DNA from: Acidimicrobiales bacterium
GTDB taxonomy: Bacteria; Actinomycetota; Acidimicrobiia; Acidimicrobiales; SZUA-35
NCBI GenBank assembly: GCA_020629695.1
Contig: JAHDCV010000003.1
Span: 1-45,586 of the forward strand
Direction: 5' to 3'
Length of the DNA: 45,586 bases
A program made the translations under genes and the position numbers. The notes below the pieces were generated by a model, which made no database searches, was not told the origin of the DNA, and was given only the letters and a program-made list of their open reading frames with translations. Positions 24,576 through 27,351 of this stretch are shown here, piece by piece. Each line of letters starts with the position of its first letter. Position 1 is the first letter of the stretch.

Positions 24576-25076
24576 TCAGAGGTAGACGCCGCCACCCGAT
24601 GCCGGAGGTGTACCCGACGGCAGCTCGTTGCCACGCTGGGCCTTCATCTGCATCAACTGCTGCTGTGCGGTCGCCTGCTGGGCCATGAGGGTCGCCTGGA
24701 TGCCGTGGAAGAGGCCTTCGAGCCACCCCACGAGCTGCGCCTGGGCGATCCGGAGCTCCGATTCGCTCGGCGCCTCGTTCTCGTCGAACGGCGGGGTCAG
24801 TCGGTCGAGCTCTTCCTGCAGGTCCGGCGAGAGGGTCTCGGAGAGTTCGGCCACCGACGTCTCGTAGATCTCCTTCAACCGGTCGCGCCCCGCGCCGTCG
24901 AGGTCGGTCGTGCGGACCTCCTCGAGCAGTTGGCGGATCATCGCGCCGATCCGCATGACCTTGGCCGGTTCGCTGATCGCGTTCGTGGGCGGCGTCGGCT
25001 CGACGTCGGCCTCGGCGGCCGGGTGCTCGACGATCTCGGGCTCGGAAGGGGGCACATCGCTCATGCCCCCCATCAT
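24576..25076 (-). CDS. bpa: Bacterial proteasome activator Bpa (PafE)
   Basis: An ATP-independent ring-forming activator of the actinobacterial 20S proteasome. The 166-residue protein matches the family along the core: SEPAKVMRIGAMIRQLLEEV near 36-55, LQEELDRLTPPF near 85-97 and ELRIAQAQLVGWLEGLFHGI near 105-125. The Gln/Met-rich helix and flexible Gly/Pro tail follow. The last residues, GGGVYL, provide a hydrophobic-Tyr-X (VYL) ending used to open the proteasome gate; Mycobacterium Bpa ends GQYL. GAGG, which overlaps the stop codon of the upstream gene, lies 6 nt before ATG 25076; an internal ATG at 25064 is possible. It is probably co-transcribed with the upstream phosphodiesterase-family gene. 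No prcB/prcA is in the window. Confidence 0.93.
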   Translation of the reverse strand: MMGGMSDVPPSEPEIVEHPAAEADVEPTPPTNAISEPAKVMRIGAMIRQLLEEVRTTDLDGAGRDRLKEIYETSVAELSETLSPDLQEELDRLTPPFDENEAPSESELRIAQAQLVGWLEGLFHGIQATLMAQQATAQQQLMQMKAQRGNELPSGTPPASGGGVYL

Positions 25077-25084
25077 GCCGTGCC

Positions 25085-26200
25085 TCAGACGACCGCCGTC
25101 AGCACGGGGACGAACATCTCGTCGGCGGTGAGCGATCCGTGCCGACCGACGAGTCGGCTGGCGCCGGGATCCGCCGGATCGGTGAACCCCAAGGGCGCGT
25201 GCGCGACGACGGCGACATCACCGAGTCGGGCCCGGGCCTCGGGGCCGACAACCGGGCCGAACCAACGCTCGTCGAGCACCTGCTCGACGGAGGCGACCCA
25301 GGCGATGTCGCCGTGGGCCGATGTCGCCGCATCGTGGATCTCGGCCGCCCGACCGGGGCGGGCGTGGAGCCACACGAAACGACCCTCACCCGAGCGGGTC
25401 CGTGCGCCGGCCACGACGTCCTCGTCGAGATCGACCGCACCGAGGTCACCGCAGTCGACGAGACCGTGATCGGCGGTGACGGCGAGCGCGACGCCGGACG
25501 GCAACGCCTCGAGCAGTCGTCGGACGAGGTCGTCCAACGCTCGCAGCTCGTGGTCCGAGGCGTCGCCCAGGCCGTACTCGTGGGCGACGGTGTCGAGCCC
25601 CGAGTCGTACGCGTAGACGAGACGGTCACCCGCGGCCAACGCCTCGACGACGCGATGGACGAGCGCACCCCGGCTCCGGTAGCCGCGGAACACGCCACCG
25701 CGGAGATGCGCCTCGGTGAACCCGGTGGTCTCGAACTCGGCCTTCGTCACGACGGTCGGAGCGGTACCCAGGAACGGCTGGATCGGCTGGATCGACTCGG
25801 CCGGCAGCGAACGCCGGACATCACCGCTCTCGTCGGTGCGCCAGCGGAGGCTCTGCAGGTGCTCCCCCTGCACGAGCATCCGGTACCCCACCACGCCGTG
25901 CTCCCCGGGAGCGGTGCCGGTCGTGATCGAGGTGAGCCCCGCCGCGGTCGTCGACGGTGCCACCGTCCGCACGCGCGCTCGCCGCAGGCCAGCGAGCGTC
26001 GGCACGATCCCCGCTCGTGCCTCGAGCAGCTCGGCGCCGAGCCCGTCGAGCACGAGCACGACCACGGCCGCGGCGTCGACCACGTCGGCCCCCAGGATCT
26101 CCACGCCCGGACCGTGGCCGGTGACCAGGGCGGGCATGAGGTCGGTCACGCTCGGGTGGCCCGTGGGAAGCACCATCTCGGGCACCGGCGTGGACGGCAT
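25085..26200 (-). CDS. Type I phosphodiesterase/nucleotide pyrophosphatase (alkaline phosphatase superfamily)
   Basis: The 371-residue protein has the alkaline-phosphatase-superfamily metal and nucleophile motifs. VLVLDGLGAELL near 45-56 gives the first metal Asp, APSTTAAGLTSITTGTAPGEHG near 80-100 gives the nucleophile Thr/Ser region, and AYDSGLDTVAHEYG gives a D-x3-H-type metal site. TADHGLVD and GRHGSLTADE contribute further His/Asp ligands. It would hydrolyse phosphodiesters or nucleotide pyrophosphates; no signal peptide is seen. ATG at 26200 is preceded by GGGAG with no spacer, so this is not a usable Shine-Dalgarno. A TACGGT -10 box ends 6 nt upstream, indicating a leaderless transcript. 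It is divergent from the Rrf2 gene and leads into bpa. Confidence 0.87.
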   Translation of the reverse strand: MPSTPVPEMVLPTGHPSVTDLMPALVTGHGPGVEILGADVVDAAAVVVLVLDGLGAELLEARAGIVPTLAGLRRARVRTVAPSTTAAGLTSITTGTAPGEHGVVGYRMLVQGEHLQSLRWRTDESGDVRRSLPAESIQPIQPFLGTAPTVVTKAEFETTGFTEAHLRGGVFRGYRSRGALVHRVVEALAAGDRLVYAYDSGLDTVAHEYGLGDASDHELRALDDLVRRLLEALPSGVALAVTADHGLVDCGDLGAVDLDEDVVAGARTRSGEGRFVWLHARPGRAAEIHDAATSAHGDIAWVASVEQVLDERWFGPVVGPEARARLGDVAVVAHAPLGFTDPADPGASRLVGRHGSLTADEMFVPVLTAVV

Positions 26201-26202
26201 CT

Positions 26203-26235
26203 CCCGACCGTACCGGGCGGGTCGGTACAGTCGGG
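26203..26235. promoter_or_regulatory. Palindromic divergent promoter/operator
   Basis: CCCGACCGTACC (26203-26214) and GGTACAGTCGGG (26224-26235) are inverted repeats matching at 11 of 12 positions, with a 9-bp GC-rich spacer. Each arm contains a -10-like box: TACGGT leftward for the phosphodiesterase gene and TACAGT (26226-26231) rightward for the Rrf2 gene. They lie 6 and 8 nt from the respective ATGs. The site fills nearly the whole 39-bp gap. It is a good candidate for autoregulation by the adjacent Rrf2 protein. Confidence 0.65.
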
Positions 26236-26239
26236 CCCG

Positions 26240-26686
26240 ATGAAGGTGTCGACCCGAGGTGACTACGCCAGCCGTGCGCTGCTCTCGTTGGCCCTCGGCG
26301 ACGACGCGGGGCCGACGACGGTCCGCCACCTGGCCGAGCGCACCGGACTCCCCCAGCCCTACCTCGAACAGATCCTGCTGTCGTTGAAGGGCGCCGGTCT
26401 GGTCCGCTCCAAGCGCGGCGTCGGCGGCGGGTACATCCTCGCCCGACGCCCCGAGGACATCACGCTCGCCGACGTGGTCCGAGCCGTCGACGGACCCATC
26501 ACACTCGGCGACTTCGGCCAGCCCCACACCGAGGGTGCGTGCGACCACGAGGGCCAGTGTGTGCTGCTCTCGGTGTGGAACACCGTCGGTGACCACATGC
26601 GTCGCCACCTGGAGGGCTACACCCTCGCCGATGTCGCCTCGATGTCGCGTGGCGACATCGAGTGGCCCACCTCCGCTCACCCGTGA
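26240..26686 (+). CDS. Rrf2-family transcriptional regulator
   Basis: A 148-residue winged-helix regulator of the IscR/NsrR/CymR family. MKVSTRGDYASRALLSLAL opens the first helix; the HTH is around residues 30-55 (TVRHLAERTGLPQPYLEQIL) and the wing contains VRSKRGVGGGYILAR. The sensory loop has ACDHEGQC, two cysteines spaced by five residues instead of the three seen in most Fe-S Rrf2 proteins. A cluster would need another ligand, such as His or Glu; thiol sensing is an alternative. It is divergent from the phosphodiesterase gene across a palindrome and overlaps the nitroreductase by GTGA. Control of a redox or nitrosative response is inferred from family and neighbour. Confidence 0.93.
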   Translation: MKVSTRGDYASRALLSLALGDDAGPTTVRHLAERTGLPQPYLEQILLSLKGAGLVRSKRGVGGGYILARRPEDITLADVVRAVDGPITLGDFGQPHTEGACDHEGQCVLLSVWNTVGDHMRRHLEGYTLADVASMSRGDIEWPTSAHP

Positions 26687-27351
26687 CCCGATCGGGATCT
26701 CCTCCTCAGCGGAACCCGGGCGGTCGCGGCTTCACCGAGCTCGTGCGGGCCCGCCACATGGTCCGGGCCTTCACCGACGAGCCCGTTCCCGCCGAACTCG
26801 TCGACGGGCTCGTCGATCTCGCACGACGTGCGCCGTCGGCCGGCAAGAGTCAGGCGCTCGACGTCGTCGTGCTCGACCGACCCGACCAGGTCGACACCTA
26901 CTGGGCGACCACCATGACCCCGGCGGTGCGGGCACGGTTCCGATGGCGAGGCCTGCTCACCGCTCCGGTGCTGATGATCATCGTCACCCGACCCGATGCC
27001 TACGTCGAGCGGTACGCCGAGTCGGACAAGGCGCGGCCCGGGCTCGGTGAACACACCGATGCCTGGGCGGTGCCGTACTGGTTCGTCGACGCCGGCGCGT
27101 CGATCGAACACGTCTTGCTGGGTGCGGTCGACGTCGGCCTCGGCGCATGTGAGTTCGGTCTGTTCGACCACGAACCCGCCGTCCGGGCGAGGTTCGGCAT
27201 CCCCGAGGACCGCCGCCTCGTCGCCACCATCGCGCTCGGTTGGCCGGACCCCGATCGTGACGAGCCGGCCCGGTCGTCGTCTCGACCGCGGCGATCACTC
27301 GACGAGATCGTGCATCGTGGTGGGTGGGACTCAGCCCATCTCGACCACTGA
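26683..27351 (+). CDS. Nitroreductase-family flavoprotein
   Basis: An FMN-dependent oxidoreductase of 222 residues from GTG at 26683, coupled to the Rrf2 stop through GTGA. FTELVRARHMVRAFTDEPVP and LVDLARRAPSAGKSQALDVV are the usual FMN-binding N-terminal blocks. SIEHVLLGAVDVGLGACEFG lies in the core helix, and FGIPEDRRLVATIALGWPD is the standard C-terminal signature. Such enzymes reduce nitroaromatics, quinones or other substrates with NAD(P)H. The operon with Rrf2 suggests stress-responsive expression. Its 3' end overlaps that of the converging pseudouridine synthase gene by 21 bp. Confidence 0.9.
   Translation: MTRSGSPPQRNPGGRGFTELVRARHMVRAFTDEPVPAELVDGLVDLARRAPSAGKSQALDVVVLDRPDQVDTYWATTMTPAVRARFRWRGLLTAPVLMIIVTRPDAYVERYAESDKARPGLGEHTDAWAVPYWFVDAGASIEHVLLGAVDVGLGACEFGLFDHEPAVRARFGIPEDRRLVATIALGWPDPDRDEPARSSSRPRRSLDEIVHRGGWDSAHLDH

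Follow-up and report, generated by a model that had tools for sequence, protein, structure and literature searches.

A close described counterpart of the locus considered here is the RsrR/NmrA pair of Streptomyces venezuelae, in which an Rrf2-family regulator is divergent from another gene and two inverted-repeat sites lie in the 107-bp gap between them (PMC5015018). An 11-3-11 inverted repeat has been called characteristic of full Rrf2 sites, and binding of RsrR to half-sites (class 2) is also known (PMC5015018). In Corynebacterium glutamicum, the MarR-family regulator CrtR, whose transcript is leaderless, is encoded divergently from the crt operon and represses both genes (PMC5401885). The leaderless promoters of Actinobacteria are typified by a TANNNT box located some 12 bp ahead of the start codon (PMC3160421). 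Bacteria commonly have symmetric promoters; in the published bidirectional promoters a single -10 element is shared by both directions, with starts mostly 10-23 bp apart (Warman et al., PMC12825309), and at symmetric promoters of Escherichia coli competition between the directions has been shown when one of them is activated (PMC12825309).

The window, a stretch of 45,586 nucleotides from an Acidimicrobiales bacterium, contains a divergent gene pair with features of several of these systems. On the plus strand lies a gene for an Rrf2-family regulator of 148 aa, with the winged helix-turn-helix domain of that family (26240..26686; Pfam PF02082, E 6.7e-40; TIGR00738 above cut-off), followed by a gene for a nitroreductase-family protein (26662..27351, plus strand; PF00881, E 7.1e-21). 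The start of the latter is ambiguous, being either a GTG at 26662, which overlaps the end of rrf2, or an ATG at 26758, which does not. On the minus strand are encoded a type I phosphodiesterase/nucleotide pyrophosphatase family protein of 371 aa (PDE; 25085..26200; PF01663, E 7.2e-28) and, 8 bp downstream of its gene, a bacterial proteasome activator of 166 aa (bpa; 24576..25076; PF10759, E 5.1e-60). The identities that an earlier note on this DNA had assigned to all four genes are thus matched by Pfam. Pup is also encoded in the same genome, and the proteasome system is therefore likely to be present.

The minus-strand ATG of the PDE gene (26200-26198) and the plus-strand ATG of rrf2 (26240-26242) are separated by 39 bp (26201-26239). 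As the earlier note had claimed, this gap holds a palindrome: the left arm at 26203..26214 (CCCGACCGTACC, reading GGTACGGTCGGG on the minus strand) and the right arm on the plus strand at 26224..26235 (GGTACAGTCGGG) are complementary at 11/12 positions across a 9-bp spacer, GGGCGGGTC (26215..26223). A repeat search widens this 12-9-12 repeat to one with 13-nt arms (92% match) and a 7-nt spacer (13-7-13). The further claim that each arm contains the -10 box of one gene also holds, both boxes being of the TANNNT form: the left arm contains TACGGT of the phosphodiesterase gene on the minus strand (26212-26207), 6 nt from its ATG, and the right arm contains TACAGT of rrf2 on the plus strand (26226-26231), 8 nt from its ATG. 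The two boxes are in opposite orientation and 13 bp apart, and neither promoter has a recognisable -35.

To place these boxes in the context of the genome, -10 statistics were gathered from a 405-kb sample, using predicted starts or nearby in-frame ones; the genes were called with a purpose-written gene caller that misplaces some starts, that of the PDE gene among them. TANNNT occurs at 37, 17, 6 and 8 sites at 6, 7, 8 and 9 nt before starts, respectively, against a background of about 1-2 per spacing at other distances. Both boxes in the gap end 6-9 nt before their start codons, at genome-enriched spacings, and thus appear to represent the routine leaderless promoter type of this genome; the compact divergent leaderless-type promoters proposed in the earlier note are to this extent borne out. 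They resemble the leaderless promoters described in Actinobacteria (PMC3160421) in box sequence, distance to the start codon, high-GC pattern and uninformative middle positions, but differ from the usual situation in that two of them face apart within 39 bp and are nearly identical over 12 bp. No -35 motif was found at a fixed distance from the -10 box in 58 leaderless-type promoters of the genome. Further divergent leaderless-type pairs occur in the 405-kb sample, one of them with a 29-bp gap (locus L130, 11036-11066), in which the -10 boxes are about 5 bp apart.

With a probability that we put at about 0.78, these sequence features are best explained by a back-to-back pair of ordinary leaderless promoters, the palindrome being lineage-specific, mostly fortuitous and not a conserved operator. 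Each promoter would consist of a TANNNT -10 box, at 6 or 8 nt from the start codon, without a recognisable -35, and the inverted repeat would result from the two boxes sharing one type of GC-rich flank (GGTANNNTCGGG), with the likeness reaching 11/12 in this genome mostly by chance and in one lineage. With 13 bp between the oppositely oriented boxes, two RNA polymerases should be unable to occupy both at once, and the promoters would probably compete. We infer, accordingly with this arrangement, start sites at the ATGs themselves and the absence of a symmetrically binding protein.

Simulation provides a measure of how far chance might account for the repeat. In random 39-mers with both -10 boxes fixed (i.e. 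the six TA..T bases), an 11/12 palindrome arises in 0.16% (at 69% GC) to 0.30% (at 74% GC) of cases, as against 0.06-0.17% at 69-74% GC when the boxes are not fixed. Similarly, when leaderless -10 regions of this genome are paired at random, about 0.2% of the pairs match at 11/12 positions or more. It counts against a chance origin that, even with the two -10 boxes given, such a match is expected in only 0.16-0.3% of gaps. Repeats with 12-bp arms at 11/12 and spacers of up to 20 bp number 136 in 404 kb, i.e. about one per 3 kb. The palindrome is thus locally improbable for one gap, yet it is not exceptional once the many gaps and windows in which it might have been noticed are taken into account.

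Comparison with relatives bears more directly on the role of the palindrome, which the earlier note had read as a possible symmetric operator while naming its loss in close relatives as grounds for abandoning that view. The conservation set comprised 95 distinct orthologous divergent PDE-Rrf2 loci, including that of the window, and the same-genus comparison is with one relative (genome G001, loci L008 and L038; Rrf2 88% identical). At L038 both spacings are unchanged (6 nt for TACGGT, 8 nt for TAGTCT), in a gap of 84 bp whose arms match at 5/12 positions; this relative has kept the promoters but not the palindrome. Of 297 other genomes of the order, none contains the exact 12-9-12 palindrome. 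Nor is there covariation between the arms: among 24 relatives with both boxes, their mean identity is 5.54/12, versus 5.77 (sd 0.26) for arms permuted among the genomes. The operator reading was thus not upheld: none of the relatives examined has the palindrome, which therefore probably does not act as a conserved switch. It could nevertheless be a recent species-specific operator, the relatives compared coming no closer than the one same-genus genome. A TANNNT -10 box is present 6-8 nt before rrf2 in 82 of the 95 orthologs, and in 81 relatives it forms the sole strongly conserved set of columns upstream of the gene. For the PDE gene a leaderless box was recognised in 27/95 loci, and the two-sided leaderless arrangement is not general among relatives.

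A search within the genome itself likewise recovered no sign of a regulon of the arm sequence: the arm GGTACNGTCGGG has 3 occurrences in the 4.17-Mb genome versus 3 for its reversed control, the third genomic copy is without an inverted partner, and the full palindrome has no second copy. The possibility that a conserved Rrf2 operator lies in another part of the gap was also considered and rejected. Dyad enrichment is weak and involves mostly TA-containing pairs, which fits scattered -10 boxes or shared ancestry, and symmetry about a fixed centre reached z values of up to 4.4 only at positions overlapping the start codon and the N-terminal coding sequence.

The pseudo-symmetric DNA, divergent transcription and expected polymerase exclusion at this locus are reminiscent of the bidirectional promoters of PMC12825309, and each arm overlaps the place where a -35 of the opposite promoter would be expected. 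This raises the alternative that the gap is one symmetric element, in which each arm serves as the -10 for one gene and the -35 for the other. However, there are two separate -10 boxes here, 13 bp apart, with inferred starts about 38 bp apart as opposed to 10-23 bp; because each direction has a -10 element of its own, the gap falls outside the strict definition of a bidirectional promoter used there. The placement of -35 elements in the opposite arms was rejected given the lack of a positioned -35 motif at the leaderless promoters of this genome, and we regard such a dual-purpose element as highly improbable.

The regulator itself deserves consideration as a potential ligand of the gap. It scores under the equivalog cut-offs of IscR (97.7 vs 207.55 bits), CymR, RirA and NsrR. 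Across the 95 orthologs its DNA-binding region (e.g. T35, L37-L47, K50 and S57-G60) is invariant or nearly so, while C101, H103 and C107 are kept in all of them within a PHxxGxCDHEGQC-like stretch. As there are just two such conserved cysteines, an iron-sulphur cluster would need non-cysteine ligands; from what is known of the family, such conservation suggests a sensor that binds an Fe-S cluster or a metal. The invariance of the DNA-binding surface would lead one to expect a conserved operator.

That the neighboring Rrf2 protein binds the palindrome symmetrically, repressing its own gene and the PDE-bpa operon, would agree with the precedent of RsrR as a regulator of its divergent neighbor and with the retention of the divergent PDE-Rrf2 pair in relatives. 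The locus is like that of RsrR in that a short gap separates the regulator gene from a divergently transcribed one. However, RsrR has 11-3-11 repeats at several loci (PMC5015018), whereas here the repeat is of the 12-9-12 (or 13-7-13) type, single-copy in the genome and present in no relative despite the near-invariant DNA-binding region, which makes such an operator very unlikely. The CrtR/crt system offers a further parallel, as an actinobacterial regulator that has a leaderless transcript, is encoded divergently from its target operon and represses both genes, but there the gap is 200 bp, binding has been shown experimentally, the motif is TTAA and the protein belongs to another family (PMC5401885).

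A different possibility, which we consider unlikely, is that Rrf2 controls its own gene, and perhaps PDE-bpa, through the rrf2 -10 region, which may be a half-site, the palindrome being incidental. In relatives CCTACGATG is the favoured form of the rrf2 box, which is more tightly constrained than other leaderless-type boxes of the same loci; this form is seen, for instance, in L040, L046 and L062, where it may constitute an autoregulatory half-site. TACGATG is found at 28% of rrf2 promoters versus 0/58 of these other leaderless-type sites, conservation upstream of the start rises mainly in the columns around the box, and the class 2 binding of RsrR provides a precedent. On the other hand, the excess among orthologs is not independent evidence because they share ancestry, the box of the window, TACAGTCGG, departs from this consensus, and neither the dyad nor the fixed-centre symmetry searches recovered a symmetric partner site. 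Back-to-back leaderless promoters remain the preferred explanation of the gap.

The gene neighborhood, as distinct from the palindrome, is well conserved. PDE adjoins Rrf2 in 77 of 80 loci and bpa is present in 73 (some contigs stop short). The nitroreductase occurs in 12/80 and lies outside the conserved core. Of the linkage claimed in the earlier note, then, the placement of Rrf2 opposite PDE-bpa holds in relatives, and the inclusion of the nitroreductase in the unit does not. In 30 BPA loci sampled from the phylum, PDE and Rrf2 lie beside bpa in 9/9 from the same order and in 0/21 from outside the class. PDE and bpa divergent from Rrf2 (24576-26686; loci L038-L117) thus appear to define a conserved arrangement of the Acidimicrobiales-type lineage. 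Given this conservation, control of PDE-bpa by Rrf2 is a reasonable hypothesis irrespective of the palindrome, and gene order makes regulation of both operons by this protein plausible; the palindrome adds no support for it. In the literature library searched, no paper was found that joins Rrf2 and the bacterial proteasome activator.

More generally, these observations imply that in high-GC actinobacterial genomes leaderless -10 boxes placed back to back may give rise to apparent operators at about twice the chance rate. A more elaborate scenario, to which we assign little credence, combines the above elements: an Rrf2 of the Acidimicrobiales, possibly metal- or Fe-S-binding, would control the divergent PDE-bpa operon from a site that recently turned into a palindrome over both promoters in the species of the window. 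Were this the case, expression of the proteasome activator would be tied to redox or iron-sulphur status. Control of bpa by Rrf2, if true, would be the first case known to us in which a bacterial proteasome activator is linked to a sensor of the Rrf2 type.
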